Shown: piece by piece, positions 1 through 49,373 of the stretch
How the letters are laid out: every line of letters begins with the position of its first letter
Position numbering within the stretch: position 1 is the first letter of the stretch
Origin: Amanita rubescens
Lineage: Eukaryota; Basidiomycota; Agaricomycetes; Agaricales; Amanitaceae
Assembly (NCBI GenBank): GCA_015039365.1
Contig: WION01000019.1
Location: 248,001 to 312,000 of the forward strand
Reading direction: 5' to 3'
Length of the DNA stretch: 64,000 nucleotides
Made by a program: the position numbers and the translations under genes
Notes under the pieces: model-generated
Seen by the model: the letters and a program-made list of their open reading frames with translations, nothing else
The model's database searches: none
Told to the model about the DNA's origin: nothing

Positions 1-490
1 TAATAGAGCACTTACTTCCTGCATATGTATCGCACATTAATGTGACAAGAAGGATTTGCCTATAGGTACAGTAGCACTCACCTCCTGGTACAATGAGCCA
101 CCTTATGTACATATCCAAATGTCAAGTAGTACTTACAGTCTAATTGTTGGCATGAATTCTGAACTAGAAATGGGACAGGTTCACGCACTTGCTTTTGGTG
201 ATGCAATCAGACCTCATTGGCATCAGTTATATCTCATCATCACTTACCCACTGTTGTCTATTGCATTAGATCTGGTTGCAGGTGCAGTTATAATATTGCT
301 CACTTTCATCAAAAAATGCTATTTTCAAGAAAATTGCATCACTATGTCAGCATACCAGGTTGAGCAGAACTACACACATCCTTCACCATGGTGTTTAGAA
401 AATAAAATTTACAGCAAAATGTGAAAGTGCACTCACATTCTGATTCATGTTTTTTGAACATCTACTGTTTTAGGTATGGCTATGAAAAGC
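1..490 (-). repeat. Serial 3-nt micro-exon array, copy 1 (partial)
   Basis: Read on the minus strand, splice-site pairs enclose exactly three bases at 437-439 (AAT), about 380 (GAT), 248-250 (TGG), about 190 (CAA), about 136 (ACT), 82-84 (GAG) and 16-18 (GAA). One 15-nt exon lies near 306-320. Each is preceded by a pyrimidine/branch-like stretch and YAG or AAG, and followed by GTGAGT, GTAAGT or GTGYGT. Spacing is about 55-65 bp. The order AAT, (GAT), 15-nt, TGG matches the plus-strand copy at 22231-22371. The array continues past the left edge. Confidence 0.75.
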
Positions 491-1846
491 ACAGTACTTA
501 CTTTTTTGATGAACTTGCCAGGGCTTAACATTACTAGTCTTCTCAAAGGCATTTACAGCTTACCCAAAAGTATGGAAAGCAGTTGAGGGCATTCCAAATA
601 ACCTGACTCCATGAAAGCTCATGATTAACTAGGGCTTGTCTGAAAATTGTCAAAATTTATCACTGGAATTTGGAATGTGACTCTCACTTAAGGGCTGACT
701 TGACACAAAGATTAAGATTGTTCATTTGTGTTGAGACAAAGAGCTCATATAAGCTGGTATCATCAATTGCATCAGCAGTTTTCTCAGTCAATTCAGAACA
801 GTCCATCTCTGGTGTATCCATGTCTGTTGAACAATGTATTAGTATCTCTCATGATTCAAAAAATGTTAATTATTTTCACCTTGCAAGTGCACATATGCCT
901 TTGGAGGAAATTGAACATTTAGAACTTTGGAAAGGTATGTCTCCTGGAAAACAGTGTCAGCTTTTTCCTCAGCTTTAGCCCACCTATCTGATCCATCTTG
1001 TTCATCATTCAATTTAGCATATTCCTGAATCACCAGAGCATCAAATTTGGTGAATGCATTCACCAAAGGGACTGTGAATATGTCATTTAGGACACAAAAA
1101 TGAAATCAATAAAAGCACTGGATTTATTTGTGTCAGCTTACCTTTCCCTGTCCCTTTAGTAAAGAACTCAAGTTCTGATGATAGAATGGGACGAGAGCCA
1201 TCCATGGGTATACAATACCTATGAAAATGTTGACCAACTGGCCACGGCCATGTAGAAAAAAAATAAGAATACCAAATTGCATGCAACTGATCTCCTACTT
1301 CAATTGCAGCAGATCGCCTCTCAATGAATTTCCAAACATCCTGAAGCTCCTTGTTGTCCCCAGCTTCAAATCCCTGTGAATCATGGAAGATAAAGTTACT
1401 TCCAGCATATGTAATCTGGTCCTCTATATTGTGTATGCCTCGCTGAAAATATTGCATATCAATCCTAAGTTTCATGCAGAAGTTTACTCACCTCCATCGA
1501 TGGTGCCAAATGCATTGGCAAAAGTTCTGATTATTGGTGTCAAAAGGCAACCGCGGCCCCATAGTGCAGTACAGATGAAGATCAAGCATGCCTTCAAGCT
1601 CAATACCATTTTGATCATATACGATGGGCTTTGTCCCCTTTGCCACACCACAAACCTTCTCAAGGATAGTGGTCTTGCCTGCATTGGCCCTTCCTATGAT
1701 GAGAATGCGGAAATGGCGGCATTTGTATCGCTCTTTGAGCATATTAACAGAGCCTACATGATGAGAAATTTGAACTAGTAAATGACAGTGTATGCAGATT
1801 GCAACGTACATGATTCATTTGTGTTAGAAGCCTCCGACTGCGACAT
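1..1846 (-). CDS. P-loop GTPase, copy 1 (3' part off the window)
   Basis: Predicted GTP-binding protein of the AIG1/MMR_HSR1-like G-domain type common in Agaricomycetes; the cellular role is unknown. A start codon at 1846 gives a short exon, then an intron, then the G1/P-loop GRANAGKTT. The next exon has G3-like HDSQGFEAG, followed by KDQLHAIWY-type sequence, then CIPMDGSRP, and TKFDA (G4) near 1040. A further exon reads MDTPEMDCSELTEKTADAIDD. Five or more introns of 48-70 nt with canonical borders separate these. Near 670-530 the gene ends its ordinary coding part with a segment finishing NCFPYFW, then a 12-nt exon (539-492 region), and then enters the serial 3-nt exon array at 1-490. It is the inverted paralogue of the gene at 20733. 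CpG is nearly absent below about 1480 but normal in the P-loop exon. The end is not in the window. The GTPase assignment is secure by motifs; function is not. Confidence 0.8.
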
Positions 1847-2657: not shown

Positions 2658-4204
2658 CTACGATTCTTGGGTTGTTTCATGAAATGGCGCCAACCCAAGT
2701 TTTGGCCTTAATTCATTCTCTGTATTAAATACGACGTATGCATTCTTCATAAAACTATGAGGTTCTGTTAGTTTTTGTCAACAGATACAGTTGGATTTCA
2801 CCTGTTGCCTAAAGCCCATGAACCTGAAGGCCATTCACCCTCGGGCATCACCTGAATTGCCCCGAGACATACATGCTCGTTGTCCGAGTGGCCTTGGTTT
2901 GAATAGGTTCCTCCGTGGTTAACAATGGTCCCGAAGAGCATAAAACTAGAATTGCGCATCAATATCAATATGCTCCTTGAGAGCCTTGCTCACCTATCAC
3001 GACTCAACGTCCAATCTTGGCCACCCCATGAAAAACTTATTTTGGGAAATGGGTGTAAGTTACACCTGAGGATCCAATGCTCATTCCTTTTGACAGCAGT
3101 TTCTATCTTGGCGTAGATCTTATCCACCTGTTCTTGAGGGCCAAATATCGTATCCGTTCCACTGATGATAAGTGTCCGCAATTTCTCTGCTATAACTTCT
3201 TCGCCCACTTTGACCTTTCCATTATCGATTGCCCAGTACGACAAGACTGCTTTTTTCAACCCCACGGCCCCCGCCTTGACGCCTGGATGGTACTCGAGAC
3301 GACTTTCGTCAAACAACTCCGGATCTCCAAGCCAGCCGATGAAGAGTTTGGAACCGGTCTCTGCGATGTGGAAAGCAAAGACGCGAGTAAGTCTGTGTTG
3401 ACTGAGGAGCTCGGCGATAACAGATTTTCCCTTGTTGAAGGACAAAGCGGGGAAAGCGAAACCGAGAATGCTGATCATTTAAATTTCAGCACAAAAATTC
3501 AAGTAGACAAATAGGAGATCGCTAACCCGTCATACGGCTGATTGTCAAAGTCTCTTGTGAAGCCCGCTAAAGCACCATATAGGTGTCTTATTACTGTTAC
3601 GCCTCCAAATATTACATTGCCTTCGTACGCTCTGCTTTTTTCATCGTTTGAATTGACTTTCAACAAACCCCGCACGCCATACTTAGGCCTATACGTTTTA
3701 ATGTATAGTGCACCTGACTTGGGTGGTATCTGCAATATAGTTTTCCGAATATCTGGATTCTCAGGCGGTTCACGAGCAACCCAGAGGTCTGATGATCCAG
3801 TATCGACTTTCACTTTGAATACAGTGTTATGGATGTTGATTCGTGCGACGAAAACATTGTCGTATTCAAATCGATTTGTTTTGTAGTGCTGGAGGTTTAT
3901 CGTGATCAGCTGCGGGTTCCGCCGTTCAATGGGTGATGCCGAAACAAACGACCCATCAGCGTGAGGGTCGATATCGTTACCCTGTGGTTGAAATTCAGCA
4001 TGTCGATAAAATAAGTAGGGGAACATGCCTCCATACCATGGTAAAAGTCTCGTCATCAGTGTAGGAGTAGTAATTTAATACGCCGTCCATTGTTGAGTTG
4101 CTGTCGAGAAGGATGAAGTCATCTTCGCTTTGTTTGCGACGGGAGCGAGCGGAGAAGGTGACAGTGGCAGTGAGGAGGATAACCACCAGCTTTGAAAGGA
4201 TCAT
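2658..4204 (-). CDS. Pepsin-like aspartic peptidase, second motif altered
   Basis: Secreted A1-family aspartic peptidase in at least five exons. ATG at 4204 (an in-frame GTG upstream is not needed) gives the hydrophobic signal peptide MILSKLVVILLTATVTFSA and a basic/acidic propeptide. Exon 1 is 4037-4204, exon 2 is 3527-3981, and exon 3 runs from 3470. The first catalytic motif VDTGSSDLWVA is intact, and FTRDFDNQPYDGILGFAFP follows across an intron. The second catalytic region reads LIISGTDTIFGPQEQV, where the family has DTGTT, so the second aspartate appears replaced by serine. The C-terminus is spread over two further exons: ISFSWGGQDWTLSRD, then CLGAIQV and WALGN, then SFMKNAYVVFNTEN and KLGLAPF, with the stop at 2658-2660. 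Length is normal for the family. It is either a catalytically dead homologue or uses an atypical residue. Confidence 0.8.
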
Positions 4205-14122: not shown

Positions 14123-16478
14123 ATGTCTGCCTCGCGTCACGTGTGCGCAACCTTCATGTCCTCATCCGTTGCAAAACCACCCGTACTCGAGATCCAATGC
14201 TTGCTCGTCTGGGAACCGATCTCTTGTGTTTTTCGTATGAATATTGAAACAAAGGATGAGCAAGGCAACGACACTACGGTTGATCTACTCAAACGTAGGA
14301 TTCACGCAGACCCATCGCTACTATCCTCCGGCATTCCGCTTCACCACTTATCTCTGCACCGTGTTTCTATCGACCTCGATGACCAGGCGTCCCTGCCGAA
14401 AACGATCTTAAAGTGCACTGAGAGGCAAAATATCATGAATGATCATCAAACCATCACGGAATGTTTCCCGGAGAAACCGGATGCAAGACGTCTTCATGTT
14501 CTCGTGGATTACGTTGGTCGTCGTGAGTGCTTCAGTGCCTTGCCTTATTTATGATTCACAGATTATCGATATGTAGAGATTACTCTTGAATTGTGCTGCG
14601 TCATGAACACTTCGAATGTTACTAATAACGACGTGTTCTCAGTATCAATCGATGGAAATTCAAATGTTTCGAGCCTCAAAGAAGCCATTAAGCGCCAACA
14701 AGGTTACGATCCGCCATCTAGCTCCCTTACGCTCTTCGATGTCTCCGATTTGTCAATAACATATAGCGACGCTATTGTCGAGCGCCTCAGGAGCATCGAC
14801 TTTGGCAGCAAGCAGTTCTTGCAGCCATTCCAGCGTCTGTCAGGCATATTTTCGTCCATTTCCGACGAGTGCCTACATATTGTCGTGCAGGTGCCATCTG
14901 AACGCAAGCCCGACTTGTTCCCGGCAATAGAAACTTAATAATTCTTCACGCGTAGCGCTTTCCCCAACGTTGGACTATGAAAAAAGAGGTACCATTGCAG
15001 CGCTGACTAACCGTTTGTGTTCAGTACTTTCGATTTGCATAGGCCAATCAGCTATTTTCAGGCTTTGAAAATACGATTCAAATTTTTGGAACACCTAAAG
15101 CCCTACGACCTTCGAATTCCGCGAGATTGTCTCGATCTGTAGCCACTCAGAAGTCTTATGGTATTTGCGACGGCCGTAACGATTCAGCTCCCGGGATGCC
15201 AATCGAGCTCTTTCACCCCGTCTTTGGACACTTCAAAGACGATGCGGCAAAGCAGTCTCCGGTTCCTGAAGATGTTGCCTATTACACTGCAGAGTATATG
15301 GTAACTGCATCCAGGATGTATGCTAATGAAAACATGCGCCGAACTGCATTAAAGGCCATCCTTTCCGAACTCGTTGGTTTTCCGATAAGCCTGGAAGAGA
15401 GCAATGACAATACTGGTCCCGATGGCATAGTGAAATGCAAAACTCAGTGTGGCGAAGCTGTGCTTCTCCTCAAGGAAGATGAAAACGAATTAGGAATTGG
15501 CCATCCTGACCCATCCACGGAGGCCGGGTTCTCGTATGTTCGTATCTGGGTTCAGAGCAATGTGAGTATGATTCTCTGTTCAGAAACTTCTAACCTTTCA
15601 TGATCTTTCGTCAGTACGAAGAAATTCGCGATCTTACTTGTTGCCCGACGTTCTTAATAGCTACTAATGGACCTTGGATCACGATTCTCGGGGCTGTCTT
15701 CACAGATCGCGTGGTCGTCCAGCGCCTAACTGATTTTCTATGGCTTGGGATCGACACTGCAATTCATGATTCCCGCTGTCCTCCTTTGGCGAATGCCTTC
15801 TTTGCCTTAAGAAGGAGCTTAGCAAAGCTCAAAACCTATTATGACGGCGTGCGACCTAGTATCAACGCAATCAGAGATGGCTTGCGCTTCTTTCCTTCGA
15901 TTACATCATTCATCGAGAACGGAGAAATTGTTCACTTCAAGTATTCTGGATTCGCGGAGGGATGGGACGATGCTTCTGTTATTCTTCGTGCACGCACAAT
16001 CAAGCGGCCGTGCAAGGACATTATCGTCAAATTTGTCGACAACTACGGGATAAAAGCACACACGAAACTGGCTGCCGTAGGTCTGGCTCCCAAACTTCTT
16101 TATTATGGAACACCTCATTTTGACCACGACGATCCATCTTATGGCAATTATCGAATGGTAGTCATGGAGTACATAGAAGGTAGAACGCTATTAGATGCCG
16201 GGAACGCGGTCGACAGGGAATATGTCAAGAATCGAATTCGAGAAGCCGTAGAGCTATTGCATGGCGATAACCTTGTCTTTGGTGACCTTCGTTCACCTAA
16301 CGTGATGATCACAGACGAAAACGATGTTAAGCTTGTTGACTTTAACTGGGCTGGAGAAGACGGACAAGCTCGATACCCATACCTGATATCCTCTCAAGTT
16401 GCCTGGGCACCTGGTGTCAAGAGGCATGGTATTATGAAGAAAGAGCATGATCTATACATGTTGGAACAATTGTTTTAG
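14123..16478 (+). CDS. Crinkler-like protein with kinase-type C-terminus
   Basis: ATG at 14123 is preferred over the upstream TTG. Exon 1 (14123-14516) and exon 2 (14577-14890) each encode a ubiquitin-like header segment. The first has IQCLLVWEPISCVF and LHHLSLHRVSIDLDD; the second repeats the layout with VFSVSIDGNSNVSSLKEAIK and CLHIVVQ. This is the N-terminal pattern of Crinkler (CRN) effectors, here apparently duplicated. The last exon (15615-16478) holds a kinase-like lobe with MEYIEGRTLL, the catalytic-loop equivalent GDLRSPNVMI and the metal-binding DFNWAG. HRD histidine and DFG glycine are replaced (FGDLR, DFN), so activity is uncertain. The middle, 14891-15090, has two introns whose borders I could not fix. 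The gene shares a bidirectional promoter of about 75 bp with the nuclease-like gene. Confidence 0.6.
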
Positions 16479-20732: not shown

Positions 20733-23700
20733 ATGGCAGAGACCCCTGGCAGTAGGAACAATTAAATGTATTTGACTGCAACAAAACTTAAGTGCTGGAT
20801 ACAGACAGCGTTACAGCTCTGAAGGAACGATACAAATGCCCCCATTTTCGCATTCTAATTATTGGGAGAGCGAATGCAGGAAAAACGACTGTTCTCGAGA
20901 AGGTTTGTGGGGTAGAGCAAGGAACAAAACCAATCATATACGATGAGAATGGTAAGCTGGATTAATGTGGCAGCCACTTTTGCATATTCATGAGTCATGA
21001 CTTTATAGGCACTGAACTAGAACCTTCTACACACCTGACACCATCAATGGAGGTGAATAAAAAAATCAATTGCAGATGTCATTGGCATTAATATGCAGCA
21101 ACTTCTAGAGAGGCACACACAATATTGAGCACCAGATTACATACCATGGGAGTAATTTCATTTTCCATGATTCTGAGGGTTTTGAATCTGGGGCAACTGA
21201 GGAGTTGGAGCATGTTTGGAAGTTCATTGGGAAGCGGTCCACTACAACTGAACTAAAAGATCAGTTGCATGCAATTTGGTATCTTTGAATTTTGGTTGTT
21301 AACAGGATCAGATGACCAAGATCTCTCAGGTACTGTGTACCTATGGACAGTCCCCGCCCTCTGCTATCTGCAGAACTTGATTTCTTTAATAAAGGGACAG
21401 GGAAAGGTGAGCTCTGAGGTTAATCAACACTACCACAGTGCTTGGCTTGGTATGGTGAGAAGCCTCTACTTTGCAGCAATGCATACAATTTTATGTTCAT
21501 GACTTGCCTGCATATCATGCAATCTACCAGTCCAAGCTATGGCATGGCAACTAGAATTATTTTCACAGTTCCTTTGGTGACCATATTCACAAAATTTGAT
21601 GGTCAAATAATAGCAGAATATGTCAAATTGAATGATATGGAGAGTGCTCAAGATAAGTGGGAGAAGGCTAGGGAGAATGCTGAAAATACTTTTCAGACAA
21701 TTTATCTTCCAAAAATATTGGATAGTAAATGTCCTCCCAAAGCCCATGTGCGACTACAAGGTGAGAGTTATGGACATTTCTTAGCAGGAGATGCCAACTC
21801 TTTGTAGATATGGACATTCCAGAGAACAATTGTCCTGAACTGACAGAGAAGACTGCTGATGCAATTGATGATGACATTCTACATGATCTGTTTGTCTCAA
21901 CACAGATGAACAATCTTGATCTTTGTATCAAATCTGCCCTTCAGTATGAATCACATTAACAATAACATTCCACACTTTTGACAGCATCCAGATATGTTTT
22001 GATTCAACAAGAACCTACATGGCATGGAGTTCTCATCATGGTCCTTTCTAAATTCCCACATTTCTGGGTATTTTAAAAATGCTTTTGCATGTAGTGCTAA
22101 GGCTGAAAGAGGGACAGGTCAATATAAAGGTGGGCTGCTTGATATCATAGGCATCTTATTTGCCAAAATGGGTAACAGGATGTAAGTATAGTGAGATGCC
22201 CTTTACTAATTAAACAATGATGATGATTAGAATGTATGTGACACTGTACTTCTACTGCAAGGAAGTGCAAGATGTGTAATGATTCTGCATGAACAGTTGG
22301 AAGTTCTACATGTGAGTGGTACTCTAACCCTCTCTGGATCAGGATCTGATGGTATCCATATATGACAGTGGGTAAGTGGTGTGGAATAGATGTAGAATTT
22401 GATAAGTTATGATCCTACAACAGGGGGTAAGTGGCACTACATATTCTGCAACAAGTCTCATCAAATCTCATGTTCCACAACAGAAAGTAAGTGACATTGC
22501 ACTTGGAAGTTCCACACATTACATGTGATTATGAATAGAGAGTAAGTGATTTCAGTCATACCAGAGGCTCATCATTGCTGATGTATCATATGATCAGAGA
22601 GTGGGTGCATTTGTTTCTGGCATTTTGATCCTATTTTATCTTCAGTTTTATAGGAGGTCAGTAGCATTCGTTTTTTCTGCAAGTAGACCTTGTTACATAC
22701 ATCTTGAACAACAGAGGGTGAGTTGTTTTTATGTTAAGCTATTGCATCACTGAGTCTCATCCCATAAATCGAAGGAAGTGAGTCACACTAAGTTTTTTCA
22801 GCTAGGTGGCAGTTGTCACATTGCTTTCATGGCATACAGGCAGTGAGTGACTGAGTGTTCACTGCTAAGCAATCTGACTCTCACATCCTGTCCAACAGTA
22901 TGTGAGTTATGGTGATTTCTGCTAGGAAGGTTCATCACACATTTTTTTAACAACAGGAGGTAAGTGATGGCACTGTGTTTTGTTTTGCAGTCTCAATTCA
23001 TGTCATCCCATGGCCAACAGTCAGTGAGTGATAACAGCTTTTTTTTGGAAAGGTAGTCTTGTTGCATCTCACATCTTTTACAACAGGAGGTAAGTCATAC
23101 TGCAATTACAATGTATTTCCACCCAGAAATCACCATATCTCACCTCATGACAGTATGTGAGTAACAGCCACTGTTATTCTGACATATACATACTATGATC
23201 TCCTATGAAAAAAAAAAAAACAGGTTGTGAGCAACCTTTCCTCTCTCCTAGTTTGTATAAGCACATCTCATCCCACAACTAACAGTATGTAAGTCACACT
23301 ACAACCTGCTTTGCAAGACAAAGTTGTGTCCCATTTCAGCTCATGACCAACAGGTTGTGAGTGATATATATTTCAGTTTCTCCTGCCATGTGACATCATT
23401 ATCACAATCATTCATAACAAACAGAGGGTGAGTCAGTTTATTTTTAGGCTCACTACATCACATCTAACAATCAACAGGATGTAAGCACTACTGTTGCATT
23501 TCTTGCAAGGCTATTGCATCACAGCTCATTTTTTAACCAACTTTAGGCTGTGAGTAGCAGTAGTTCTTCTGCCAGGCAATCTCATCATGCCTCATATCCT
23601 GATCAACAGCAAGTAAGACATGCTGCATTTTTCTGCCAGCTGCTGCATCAGGCTTCTCACTCATTAATTGACAGGATGTGAGTAGCACTTCTGTTTCTTT

Positions 23701-25621
23701 GATCCTTCTTACATGATTACATCTCATCCCACAGGGTGTGAGTAATACTGTGCTATTGCTATGAGCTATTTTATGACACTTCCAATAGCTTGTAGGTGAC
23801 ACTCTACTCCATAATTTTTCCAGACAATCAGAGCATATCACTCATTGCATGACCAACAGGATGTGTGTGACACTGCATGTTTTTCTGGGACCTGAAGTTG
23901 TCTCATCAACCACCTTATCCTATCATCAACAGGAAGTGAGTGTTGCAATTATTGCTGCAAAGCATTTTGTCCCAACTACTTTGGCCAACAGACAGTAAGT
24001 AGTATGCAGTGACTGTTCATGAGAAAATTGCCAAATGGTCACATCACATATGAATAAAAGACTGTATGTGGAGTTGAATATTGAAATTTGTGCAGTTTGA
24101 TAATCTTATCACATTGCCAACAGTCTGTAAGTCTTATTCAATTTCCAGCCATCTGATCTTACTCACTCAATAGGCTGTGAGTGATGCTCCAATCTTTTCT
24201 TGAGTCTCACCCTGCTGATTGTGTGATCAACAGCAAGTGTGTTTTATTGCATTTTGTTCTGCAAAAGTTATCTCATCATATTTCGACCCATGAATAGGAA
24301 GTGAGTTATGCTGCAGTTTTTTCTGCCAGGTTATCTTATACATGTCTCATACTAACAGCTTGTGAGTGAAGTTATGTTTTTCTCCTAAGCAGTCTCTTCA
24401 CAGAATTTTTTCATAATCCCTAGGAAGTGGGTGACACATCCTGCCTTCAATACAGACTTCTCATCATAAAACCAACAGGGAGTAAGCCATTTATCACTTT
24501 CATCTGCTAGGTAACCCTTCACATGTCATGACAGCGTGTAAGTGACTTTGAACTACTTTCTTGAAGTCACACATCCCATTTTTGACTAACAGCGAGTGAG
24601 TTACATTGCTTAGTATGCAAGTGGCTTTCATCATATTTCAAACAGGGAGTGAGTGAAATTGCAATTTCTCTCACTGTGTAATCTTATTTAAGATGATCCT
24701 GGAATGGCCAAATAGGAAGTAAGTGACATTAACACTCTTTTTTACCTTCACCTTTATTCACCCTATTTCATGGTCAACAGCAAGTGAGTGATACAGTTTT
24801 TTCAACTGCTACACTGTCTTATGCATCACATACTTCAAATAAAAGCTTGTGAGTGATTCTACAGGTATGTTTTGCCTTCATTGCAATCTAATTTAAGAAC
24901 CAAAAGAGAGTGGGTCATACTCATGGCAGTGTTTCTCCATAAATAATCTCATAATGTCTTTGATTATTAGACAGTAAGTAACACCGGATTTCTTTGCTCA
25001 CTGTGTCATTTTTCATCTGACCTAACAGAAAGTGGGTAAATGTTATTTGTTTCAATCAATCTTTTTATGCTAATATTATGATATGTGGATAGATTGTAAG
25101 ATACACTAAGGATTCTCTAATAGCTACCTCTTGATTTGTATCAAGGCAAGTGATGAAAAAGAGCAAATAAAATATGCTGACAAACATATAAGGTTGTATG
25201 TCCACTGCTGAGATTCTATTGAAAATTTTGCTCCCTCATTCTTACTAGTCTAAACTGCAATACCTCTTTGGTGATGAATCAGAAAAACTTTCAAGAACCA
25301 GTGTAAGGCCTGTGTCTGATTAATTCTGCACTATGCAGCTGATGTTGTAACCAGCCCACAGCCTGTCAGCTGTTAGCTGGTAAGTCACTGTATTTTATTT
25401 GTTGTTTTATTTGTCCTAATAGTTACTAAGCAACTAATATCCTTGCCAAGCTGTCATTTTGGATCAGGAAACCAATCTATGAATCAATCATGGATGCCTT
25501 GGAACAGTTTGAAAGACAAGATGATGTGAAGAAACTGAAGCTACAAATCACTTCTGAATCAATGCCTTCCAATTTGGAAGATTTAATTGCTTTTCTTTAT
25601 GATCAGGTCATCCACATTTGA
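20733..25621 (+). CDS. P-loop GTPase, copy 2, with about 48 serial micro-introns
   Basis: G-domain protein, paralogue of the minus-strand gene at 1-1846. Exons inferred from splice consensus are 20733-20751, 20793-20951, 21009-21052, 21109-21278, 21330-21406, 21569-21760, 21808-21943, 21992-22067 and 22102-22181. They keep frame throughout. Motifs are FRILIIGRANAGKTT (G1), FHDSEGFESGATEELEHVWK (G3 region), KDQLHAIWYC, and PLVTIFTKFDG (G4 TKFD). Then come FVSTQMNNLDLCIKSAL, VLSKFPHFW and LLDIIGILFAKMGNR. From 22182 the gene becomes an array of introns separated by single trinucleotides. Coding resumes at 25124 (YLLICIKASDEKEQIKYAD), then SKLQYLFGDESEKL near 25250, and a final exon with ILAKLSFWIRKPIYESIM ending TGA 25619-25621. 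Borders of exons after 25190 are uncertain and the last intron may lie beyond. Function is unknown. Confidence 0.75.
22182..25123 (+). repeat. Array of 46 three-base micro-exons in short introns
   Basis: Consensus (C)AACAG-NNN-GTRAGT repeats every 50-73 bp. The exon trinucleotides begin at 22231 (AAT), 22369, 22424, 22484, 22539, 22598, 22654, 22715, 22775, 22840, 22899, 22957, 23021, 23087, 23154, 23224, 23286, 23354, 23425, 23478, 23547, 23610, 23675, 23735, 23789, 23860, 23933, 23992, 24061, 24124, 24174, 24234, 24298, 24359, 24424, 24479, 24535, 24593, 24646, 24716, 24781, 24846, 24907, 24971, 25029 and 25093. One unit (22297-22311) is 15 nt. Introns of 47-70 nt carry CTCAT/CTAAC/TGACC-like branch sequence close to AG. 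Unit interiors are related but diverged (GTGAGTGACACTGCA, TTTTTCTGCCAGG and CTCATCACATCTCAT are recurrent). The trinucleotides are diverse and purine-rich. Confidence 0.85.
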
Positions 25622-45990: not shown

Positions 45991-48900
45991 TTAAGCTGCA
46001 TCCCCATCAGCGTTATCCCCATCGGATTCATCTTCGTTATCCTGTTCGTCTGACTGACGGAAGTACGTGAGCTCCAAATACGGTTTCTCCACAAGGAAAT
46101 GCTCCGTTGGCGATATTTGTATCTCTCCAGTCTCTGGAACCACTTTGAAGTAGGGAACCATGGCCACGAGCATCTTGATGCAGCTGATGTTGCAAGCTAC
46201 TAATGCGCTATCGCCTTGATAATGACACGAGTATACTGTATGATTCGATTCTTGCAGTAATTGTACATCCGGATGAGAAAATTTGGAAAGAACCACAATT
46301 GTATGTATGACCTTGTCAAATTTGAGCCGAAAAAAGTACCTGCATTCGCCGAACTCAATCTTGTCGTTTAGAATGAACTAGACATGTCAAGGTAGGTAGC
46401 TGAGATTGTATTATGAAGAGGCACATACCCTTACAATTGTTGTTCGCTTACGCTTACGACGTAGTGACCGCCCCTCCCCCCAAGCTGAACACACTTTCTG
46501 GCCATTAGGGAGACGAAGCCGTGCCCAGCGTATGACTGTCTTGTGATTGGCCCATCCATCGCGATTCGGCCATTTTTCCTTATCCCATAAGTTAAGGATA
46601 GCTTGAGCGTCTTGAGTTGAAACCGCGCGAGCTACAGAATCACATGCTCGCAGCAACGTGTAACCCTGTCCGAGGTCCACCGAATTATCAGGGAGTTTCT
46701 CCTTATTCTTGAGAGATAAACCAGGCATCATTGAGTTTATTGAGTTCATCTGCGCTCGGATGATGCCCCGTTGAGAGATGTTGGCATACGGGTCGTAGTC
46801 TTGGCGGATTTCCTCGCCGAGATTGCCAATCGCGTTTTCCATCGTCCACTGAGAGTAGCAAGCTAGCGGACCAACACGAGAGATCTCTGGAGCAATGTGG
46901 CTAAGTAGGTGGATGCTTTGTCGGATAAAGTGGATACGGTCGGGATTTTTTTGATAATACAATTGTTCGTATTCATGCTGGAACTCGTTAAGGAGGCGCA
47001 TCCCTGCCAGGAGTTGGTCATACGGTATTGACCGTTGCTGGAGCAGTTGTATTCCACGGACGAGTTTGCAATAATTTCTCCAGTACGGTTCTGGTAGGAT
47101 GGATTTGAGAAGCGCGGGTCCGAGGGCGAAAATGTACAGGAGGAATTCCCAAGCCTTGTATCCGGAGTTAATCTTCTCTGCTGGGTTGCGTGGTGCACGA
47201 TCAAATGATGTGGGTAGATAAGGTGCCGCCATCGATACCGTCTTCCCATGGGCCTTCCAGACGCGTTTATCTTTCAATACACACCACGGCCATTTCTCAT
47301 GTTTGTCGTCCCCATAACATTTGAGCGTTCCTCGCCAGAGTCCAAGAAGGAGGTCGGGGTCATTTATAGCAACGAGATGCATGATATCCAGGACAAATAT
47401 GTTTGGGATTCCAAGCGTTCCAATCAGACCGCTAAATATTGTTGGTTTGCAGATGCCGGTTTCAAGCCGATTACTATTGAATCGATTTGTGTTTGCTGAC
47501 TGGCACAAAATTTCGAGATTCTTACGATAGCGTTCAGCCGTATTTGCTCGAAAATGTTGGAGATCATATTGTGATACATCATGGTGATCACAGCCTTCAA
47601 CATTGTAGTTCGATGGCTTCAACAAGGCAGGATAATAATGCCCATCGCCCTCCCGATGTCGGCCAGGTAATCCGCAGTAAAGTCGGCACCCATACTTCCC
47701 CTGGTGTCCAACCATACCTGCCATGCTTGCCATACCCGGTGTATCTGCTGTTGCAAATAAAAGGAATGGCACAACGTTCTTGATACGTTGTTCAGTTGAT
47801 GCGTCGTATATATGTAATCCTTCTCGTTGTAAAGCTGACAAGTGATATAGCGCAGGAAAGAGGAAAGAGTCGATATGCTTAGGCTTTTTGGGTCCAGGAA
47901 TAAAGCCGCCAGGAATAACATAGTCTTTTGTGTAGCGATAATCAGGAGGAAGATCGTGGATGACATAAATGTACATCCAACAATCGGAGTCCTTGTCTCT
48001 GAAAAGCTGTGCACCGTCGAGCGACATTTGGATCACGATGTCGTCTGGCTTGATTTTCCCATTTGCAACAGCTTCCAGATAGTCACTTCCTACGTAAATG
48101 TCGTCATATACCTCGATTTTACCATCGTTATTGCGTAAATAAACAATAATTTGTTCAGTTCGTTGACGACGATGGTGCATTCGGCGGGCGCTCTCGGGTG
48201 ACCGGTAGAGCGCTTGTAATACGAAGCCGAGTGGAATCGTATGGTATTGGCGCCTTGGGACTCGTTTAGGTCGTGGGCCGGTGGTGTACTGGTAGCGAGG
48301 CTCGGAACAGAGGGGACACTGTTCAAGGTCCTTGAAAGGACCGGTGAATGCAGCACATGTGTCAATACACATGTCATGGGTAATGGGGACAATGCCGCTA
48401 ATCTGTTGAATGCGACGTTTGATTTGATCGTACGACAAGAAGACATGATCTTTGGGGTGTCGGATGAGATAGGCATCACGAAATGAGTTGTAAACATCTT
48501 GAGAAGCGTTGTTAACGGCGAGGAATGTTCGGAGTGAGAGCAGAAAGTCAGGATCGCACACGTCGAATGGAAAGTCTTTCGGTGCTTCACGTAAACGGGC
48601 TATATCATTCGGATGCATGTTGCTATTATCAAGCTTGGCATGCTTTAATTCCTCGATGAATTGCGCAGCTGTCTTGATATCGTCTATCTCGGAACCCAAG
48701 CCTACCGTCTCATTTTCAAACATAGAGAGGTTGCGTTGTATATCAGAACCAAATCCTATTGTTTCATCTTCAAACATAGAGAAATCGCGTTCATGCTCAA
48801 CCTGGGTATCATCGAAATGACGGTGCGCATCATCACTGGCAGCAGGAGATTCTTCATTTTGAGGGTGACTGGTGCTCTCGTCGTCGAGCGTATTAATGCC

Positions 48901-49373
48901 GTCACTTCCCTAGATATAACAAAGTAAGAATTTAAGAGAAAAAACATGACATAGAACACACCTGTTGACCAGGTAAGTGTTCTTGTTCTCCGGGCTGAGT
49001 TTCCTCGTTGTGCGCTAGCTCCAAGTCGTTGCGAGAGTCAGAGGCGCTCCCTTCACTAGAAGCAACGTTATTATTAACATGATGATTTGTCTACACGTCT
49101 GTAAGTAAGTATTCTTGATGGGGAACGCATAATACCTACATTGGAAAACCGATTTCGTGAACTATGATCGACATGGGTGTGGGTTGGGCCAGCACTCGAC
49201 CCTCCTGTGGATTGCGCTGTATGTGTTTGTCCCACTTCGCCGCGTGGTGGTATAATAACTCCCCTCTGTAAGCAGAACTCTCGAATCCGGGTTTCGTGGT
49301 CTTCACGTGCGTATTTTCGCCGTATCGCGCGGCGTTGAGACTCTGGTTTGATGTCTTTGCGAGAGCGCCTCAT
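45991..49373 (-). CDS. Transposase, Plavaka/CACTA-like
   Basis: The best start is ATG 49373; upstream TTG is not used. N-terminal exons are charged and low-complexity, and the repeat MFEDETIGFGSD / MFENETVGLGSE occurs near 48700-48777. The core (46411-48777) has a putative zinc site CIDTCAAFTGPFKDLEQCPL. It then has IQMSLDGAQLFRDKDSDCWM (candidate first catalytic Asp), PGGFIPGPKKPKHIDSFLFP, GKYGCRLYCGLPGRH, VLDIMHLVAIND (candidate second Asp) and QWTMENAIGNLGEEIRQDYD (candidate Glu). The last exon (45991-46290) has YSCHYQGDSALVACNISC and HFLVEKPYLELTYF. It would cut and rejoin DNA at the element ends. The frame is intact; the family call is from motif memory. Confidence 0.8.

Follow-up and report, generated by a model that had tools for sequence, protein, structure and literature searches.

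The Fusarium gene CYP621A reportedly contains an exon of 1 nt, and human RPS24 is said to carry one of 3 bp. Excerpts of a report on Arabidopsis APC11 likewise describe a 1-nt exon, before which 3 nt was the smallest alternatively spliced exon known (PMC4674806), and sections of another report deal with microexons in plants (PMC8831610). Isolated exons of 1-3 nt are like the locus described here in that exons this small or smaller can be spliced; they occur, however, one or two per ordinary gene. The locus in question lies in a stretch of 64,000 nucleotides from the basidiomycete Amanita rubescens (contig WION01000019.1, positions 248,001 to 312,000; hereafter the window), in which a predicted GTPase-like gene contains a run of 46 consecutive three-base units, a pattern that recurs genome-wide. 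Our reading, to which we assign a probability of roughly 0.9 from the DNA and its comparison with paralogues and database proteins, is that this array is a coding segment spliced in series, with 48 one-codon, phase-0 exons that would stand between a G domain and a C-terminal part.

The micro-exon genes (MEGs) of Schistosoma encode secreted proteins with a signal peptide. They resemble the Amanita array in having serial, frame-neutral small exons within a variable family, but they belong to a parasite and their exons, at about 6-36 nt, are longer than the 3 nt seen here. Fungal introner-like elements are near-identical introns scattered over many genes. Near-identical introns have also been multiplied in the Amanita genome (a 30-mer of the consensus intron is present 660 times, its control 0 times, and the sites listed cluster in arrays), the difference being that the copies inspected sit in arrays with a codon between each. 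In the TAL effectors, the PRDM9 zinc fingers and the fungal NWD/HNWD receptors, homogenised repeat units carry hypervariable positions; these repeats and the Amanita arrays alike consist of near-identical DNA units, vary at a few positions only and differ in length from allele to allele. The conserved part of the unit, however, is protein in those repeats and intron in Amanita, where each unit would contribute a single codon to the protein. The sections of an aphid study cited here describe the bicycle genes as a fast-evolving family with many very small internal exons, nearly all in phase 2, and a megacycle gene with more than 100 microexons (PMC9168663). As far as those sections go, the two systems share many tiny one-phase exons within a family; the 48 single-codon exons of the window gene are in phase 0, not phase 2, are exactly 3 nt long, are flanked by a G domain and are separated by introns that form a repeat family.

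No description of single-codon, three-nucleotide or arrayed microexons, nor of Amanita microexons, was found in the open-access literature. We regard the architecture as new in kind, with the codon as an exon unit that occurs by the tens in the genes of a family, and with introns that are themselves a repeat family; in a stricter view it could be an extreme variant of the microexon genes. If RNA bears it out, the exon would here have shrunk to a codon, with dozens of such exons in a gene and a large family of genes of this kind. Such an architecture would also test the limits of the spliceosome, in the ordering and the fidelity of tens of site pairs three bases apart, imply that a whole protein segment can escape gene prediction, and offer a minisatellite-like route by which a protein could be varied codon by codon. 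In the homogeneous arrays, intron copying and recombination can be observed directly.

The array and the gene model

Within positions 22100-25200 of the window the motif [ACT]AG-NNN-GT[AG]NG is matched 47 times, as against 0-3 matches for each other spacer among 0-12 bases. Order-2 Markov controls of the region give a mean of 1.6 matches and a maximum of 8 (2000 runs), and order-4 controls a mean of 9.3 and a maximum of 24 (500 runs). Chained at a spacing of 44-82 bp, the units form a longest run of 39, compared with at most 3 and at most 5 in the order-2 and order-4 controls, respectively; outside the array region (1-22000 and 26000-64000), the plus strand of the window has no chain longer than 1. 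An extra unit at 22654 has a GTC donor and is missed by the motif. The window array is absent from the output of Tandem Repeats Finder, the likeness among the array's introns being too low, at about 52%.

The gene model was obtained by spliced alignment to four homologous cDNA-like proteins, after which the borders were corrected. It runs from 20733 to 25621 on the plus strand and comprises 61 predicted exons. Of these, 48 are exactly 3 nt long: two start at 22179 and 22231, and an unbroken series of 46 has starts from 22369 to 25193. Every one of the 60 introns is GT-AG, and the joined exons give an open frame of 437 codons with no internal stop, as in a serially spliced microexon gene. The 48 introns from 22181 to 25193 measure 47-70 nt, with one of 97 nt. 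The G-domain exon block (20733..22067) terminates in ...SKFPHFW in phase 0, and the reading phase of what follows is set to 0 because a homologous 12-nt exon in five paralogues fixes it. In the C-terminal part, the 3' ends are conserved among paralogues.

A first-pass annotation, made from the letters alone, had claimed a run of 46 three-base units with short introns, a single 15-base unit, and ordinary in-frame coding on both flanks. The motif counts, the Markov controls and the gene model confirm the run; the 15-base unit is present as the exon at 22297-22311, and the model places eight exons on the 5' side and three on the 3' side. The exon borders first proposed, 22102-22181 and 25124, are unsupported, the paralogues and the cDNA-like proteins giving 22118-22129, 22179-22181, 25193-25195 and 25249-25302 instead. 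That the length of three is never broken is true of the window run except for the 15-nt unit, but not of arrays elsewhere, where units of 6 and 9 nt occur and, in rare cases, units whose length is not divisible by three. Two candidates were discarded along the way. A MAGE-like identity had arisen from a phase-2 reading behind 22102-22181 and was dropped once the 12-nt exon of the paralogues and the spliced alignments had fixed phase 0; an 18-nt exon placed by spliced alignment at 21477-21494 matches nothing and was left out of the model.

Triplets as putative codons

The whole array might instead be one large intron, or a satellite within an intron, that is removed as a block and leaves none of the triplets in the mRNA. 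The automatic gene models of A. rubescens are in keeping with this: P0002 stops at ...KSALR and P0003 ends at ...WVDRVVDGQ, both before the array, and P0085 jumps from FPHYW to the C-terminal part. Four tests, on stops, conservation, codon choice and a cDNA-like match, indicate that the triplets are phase-0 codons. The triplet set consisted of 413 units from 12 sources, namely the window and 11 of 27 loci, the rest being overlaps, near-copies or loci with no array in use. By motif scan, stop triplets number 2 in 413; the triplets' own base frequencies, taken position by position, predict 27.3 (P 2.5e-10). Both are in paralogue L010, where AACAG-GAA-GTAAGTGAG-like units are read four bases late, and by inspection there are zero stops. 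When codons are read across the junctions, stops appear in 52/382 in phase 2 and 3/382 in phase 1.

Conservation was compared at two distances. The window gene has two close copies, at 95.6% and 96.2% identity, in which 1 and 0 of 135 triplet bases are changed, the lone change sitting in a unit with an insertion; outside the triplets, the 2776 bases have 66 and 52 substitutions and 37 and 38 deleted bases. Taken alone this is a modest test, with about three triplet changes expected per comparison. Between the proximal units of L010 and those of five paralogues, triplets are 79-94% identical and intron interiors, with the splice sites excluded, 57-81%, triplet identity being the higher in all five comparisons. 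Two of the five were Fisher-tested (47/50 vs 583/762, P 0.0025; 30/38 vs 366/643, P 0.007), and L031 and L032, two homogeneous arrays discussed below, are among the five with their proximal units only. Codon choice is likewise distinctive. The third base is C in 1/413 single-codon exons, compared with 103/682 codons in the ordinary exons of two genes (P 1.7e-21), and the ratio of CAG to CAA is 0:47 in single-codon exons vs 12:14 in ordinary exons. This bias probably stems from splicing, in that a C before GT would weaken the 5' splice site and CAG would create a second acceptor.

The cDNA-like match comes from P0034, a protein of 478 aa (1437 nt with the stop) encoded without introns on a JGI contig of 1486 nt. 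The paralogue genes have several introns in the G-domain part alone, and the contig is most likely derived from RNA because the introns of the genomic gene are missing from it. Spliced alignment of P0034 to the paralogue L017 yields 46 three-base exons, the first coding for W (2251) and the last for R (5027). In a run confined to the array, 38/46 residues are identical with a score of 276.7; 200 shuffles of the P0034 segment reach a mean of 112.8 and a maximum of 146.4 with at most 18 identical residues, and the reversed segment scores 127.4. The ordinary exons of the same pair have 58/63 residues identical, which suggests that array codons evolve much like ordinary ones. In another pairing, P0005 and the proximal units of L011, 13/16 residues match. 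Set against these results, a single large intron becomes very improbable: the triplets, unlike intron sequence, avoid stops, are conserved above the introns and have a codon choice that depends on splicing, and in one array they follow an intronless contig codon by codon. The serially split coding segment, one of the readings offered by the first-pass annotation, gains support from the same stops, conservation, codon choice and P0034 match.

The adjoining 3' and 5' splice sites at regular spacing would also suit a recursive-splicing ratchet, likewise proposed at the outset, in which the units serve as stepping stones in the removal of a long intron, with none of their bases retained. A ratchet point, however, re-creates a 5' splice site with no bases between it and the 3' splice site, while here three bases always intervene and behave as codons found in the matching protein. 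The 0-nt form is rare (spacers of 0-2 bases together give 23 matches across the genome vs 2132 for three), and the ratchet is scarcely credible.

Another alternative is that the units are included or skipped in many mixtures, so that one gene yields a library of peptides. Exons of 3 nt in phase 0 make any skip frame-neutral, and the homogeneous arrays offer many near-identical splice sites among which such choices could be made. P0034, however, has a residue for nearly every L017 unit, which suggests full inclusion, the codon order of the window array is conserved between copies, and no isoform pair with skipped codons was found, a single tail search with P0034 having returned P0034 itself. 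We regard combinatorial splicing as unlikely, although some skipping is compatible with serial splicing as an addition to it.

For serial splicing itself the following mechanism may be proposed. Each intron of 47-70 nt would be recognised as a unit by intron definition, and the size of the exon would be irrelevant for that reason. The 3' and 5' sites three bases apart could not be occupied together, which would require removal in rounds or in order; the order itself is conjectural. Tens of phase-0 codons would in this way be joined one by one into the mRNA. The splicing part of the explanation is well supported by the comparisons above, and the window gene is presumably transcribed and spliced in the same way as its paralogue.

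Several observations weigh against this reading. The joining of consecutive microexons is seen for L017 against P0034, not for the window gene itself, and the source of the P0034 contig is given only as 'jgi', its RNA origin being deduced from the absent introns. One L017 unit, near 3497, reads four bases and is bridged in the alignment with a 6-nt piece; this copy may be broken or mis-sequenced there. None of the four proteins used for the gene model can be aligned codon by codon to the window array, several units being skipped or read through as longer pieces. A protein search with the tail of that array gave P0122, at 35% identity, as the closest match and no close cDNA; the tail searches for further expressed proteins returned this one relative, and that with the P0034 tail returned P0034 only. 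As for the statistics, the order-4 Markov control reaches 24 matches because the model partly copies the repeat itself, and stops alone do not exclude phase 1, which is excluded because the flanking exons, not the stop counts, set the phase.

Genome-wide arrays and codon turnover

The first-pass annotation described one gene; the genome-wide counts show a wider phenomenon. In the 75.7 Mb of the A. rubescens genome (786 contigs), the strict motif ACAG-NNN-GTGAGTGACA has 2132 matches and its reversed control 1. Of the 23 matches with 0-2 bases in place of three, 14 are on contig C749; those with 4-12 bases number 45, of which 32 have a spacer divisible by three. Contig C749 also has three 4-nt units, as a broken gene or a badly assembled array would. 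One G-domain exon is present in 150 scored copies among 231 first-look candidates, the pairing of array with G domain having been checked at selected loci rather than at every copy, and the conserved exon end FPHxW was found at 7 of the 8 array loci searched, L013 being the one that lacks it. Single-codon arrays occur genome-wide and are not confined to one gene. Both haplotypes appear to be present in the assembly, and the true number of genes may therefore be about half the copy counts. The strict motif captures 104 of the 413 units, which would put the genome-wide total at perhaps 8000, a figure extrapolated from loci that were mostly picked by that motif. The arrays of L014 and L015 end near unrelated sequence (in L015 directly after the conserved ATT unit), perhaps as a result of transposon insertions.

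The arrays differ greatly in homogeneity. In the window array the codons are fixed between the copies of the gene, and the introns are diverse, as noted above. L015 (contig C8) has 54 units with introns about 89% alike, and 94 intron pairs are fully identical. Among such pairs (92-94, depending on the count) the triplets agree in about 19-20%, i.e., 18-19 same-triplet pairs vs 12.8 in shuffles, a level reached by 157 and 114 of 2000 shuffles and hence non-significant. L030 (contig C332) resembles it, with introns near-identical to one consensus and not tied to the codons. The earlier suggestion of an intron-like element spreading in tandem holds in part, as the introns of L015 and L030 are indeed near-identical copies, but these copies have spread independently of the codons.

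These data bear on how the arrays arose. Introner-like copies may have invaded an ordinary exon at successive codon boundaries, with no duplication of codon plus intron. The lack of a significant same-triplet excess among identical introns in L015, with L030 alike, favours such an origin, as do the 660 copies of the consensus 30-mer. Insertion alone, however, leaves the exact three-base spacing unexplained, a three-unit block CTT-CAA-AAA repeated with its introns within L015 shows that codon and intron have been duplicated together, and the likeness of the introns could have been exaggerated by polishing, as in L031 and L032. We consider insertion as the sole origin unlikely.

L030 is an allele of L015: the flanks are 98-99% identical and the proximal codons are the same. 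The distal codons differ, with 55 units in L015 vs 23 in L030 by motif scan over the compared stretch, and their order is no more alike than in shuffles. Either the introns have been homogenised around selected codons or the codons change very fast, and introns may act as recombination tracts for codon turnover, a suggestion that comes from one clean allelic pair. Triplet hypermutation, considered for L015, is at odds with the window gene, whose triplets have changed less than its introns, though it may take place in active arrays. Assembly and polishing errors are a real concern in homogeneous arrays. In L031 and L032 (contigs C13 and C254) the introns are nearly all identical, and there are odd triplets (CTA, ATC, CTC, GAC) together with 2- and 4-nt units. 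These blended triplets, absent from L015 and L030, are probably a smear from consensus polishing, and for this reason the pair was not used as a second allelic test of turnover.

Under serial splicing, the gain or loss of a one-codon unit would leave the reading frame intact. Unequal recombination, promoted by near-identical introns, would add, drop or change single codons, and selection would keep or diversify the codons of the array. On this basis one may imagine a codon-cassette system, in which hundreds of GTPase genes with homogenised, recombining introns would generate a haplotype-specific hypervariable peptide, possibly as a self/non-self or immune-like repertoire; the splicing of tens of one-codon exons per transcript would then be the price of variation. 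We put this forward tentatively, as a possibility with the odds somewhat against it.

The encoded protein and neighbouring features

The product of the window gene is likely a GTPase. The encoded protein contains GRANAGKTT, which we take to be the P-loop, and FTKFD, presumably a G4 motif of the TKFD type; its relatives are annotated with PF01926 (precomputed), and PF01926 scores 20.7 bits against paralogue L022, the cut-off being 21.9. The AlphaFold2 model of P0034 has a mean pLDDT of 73 and consists of a G domain and a helical C-terminal part. The array codons correspond to about residues 327-373 of P0034; pLDDT is below 50 for residues 314-359 and a helix from 361 is more confident. The array would appear to encode a flexible, variable stretch of the protein. 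The best Foldseek matches to this model are IRGa6/IIGP1 and GM4951 (E 1.6e-4 and 2.0e-4), weak matches with TM-scores of only 0.33-0.44, and a recognition or immune-like role is a guess. P0025 and P0029 have near-identical G domains, similar C-terminal parts and very different array-coded middles, as if these had been exchanged or had diverged. The coordinates of the predicted features are collected in Table 1.

Table 1. Predicted features of the array gene and of a second family member in the window.
Feature	Position	Strand	Basis or remark
Eight ordinary G-domain (GTPase-like) exons, part 1	20733-20751, 20793-20951, 21009-21052, 21109-21278	+	spliced alignment
Eight ordinary G-domain exons, part 2	21330-21406, 21569-21760, 21808-21943, 21992-22067	+	spliced alignment
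12-nt exon (VNIK)	22118..22129	+	homologous 12-nt exon in L010, L015, L011, L017, L022
Single-codon exon 1 (GAT)	22179..22181	+	motif scan, gene model
Single-codon exon 2 (AAT)	22231..22233	+	motif scan, gene model
15-nt exon (LEVLH)	22297..22311	+	counterpart 18 nt in L017, 30 nt in L022
46 consecutive single-codon exons, encoding WGKRREREAYESEYVYVRDAQDGLDETTSAQELEGRRGEQLRTKIV	22369..25195	+	first 22369-22371 (TGG), last 25193-25195 (GTT)
Three ordinary C-terminal exons	25249-25302, 25355-25379, 25431-25618	+	spliced alignment to P0025, P0034, P0062
Stop codon TGA	25619-25621	+	gene model
Second family member, G-domain exons about 1751-561 and first array units	18..1770	-	array runs past left window edge

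The array of the second family member continues in L033, where the motif scan finds 49 units without a stop. A Pfam search of ten long open frames of the window returned a tnp2 transposase and a partial kinase only, with no match for the array gene. The former is an open frame on the minus strand at 46411-48909 that matches the tnp2-type transposase family PF02992 (E 4.8e-11), and the latter an open frame on the plus strand at 15594-16478 with a partial protein-kinase match slightly under the Pfam cut-off.

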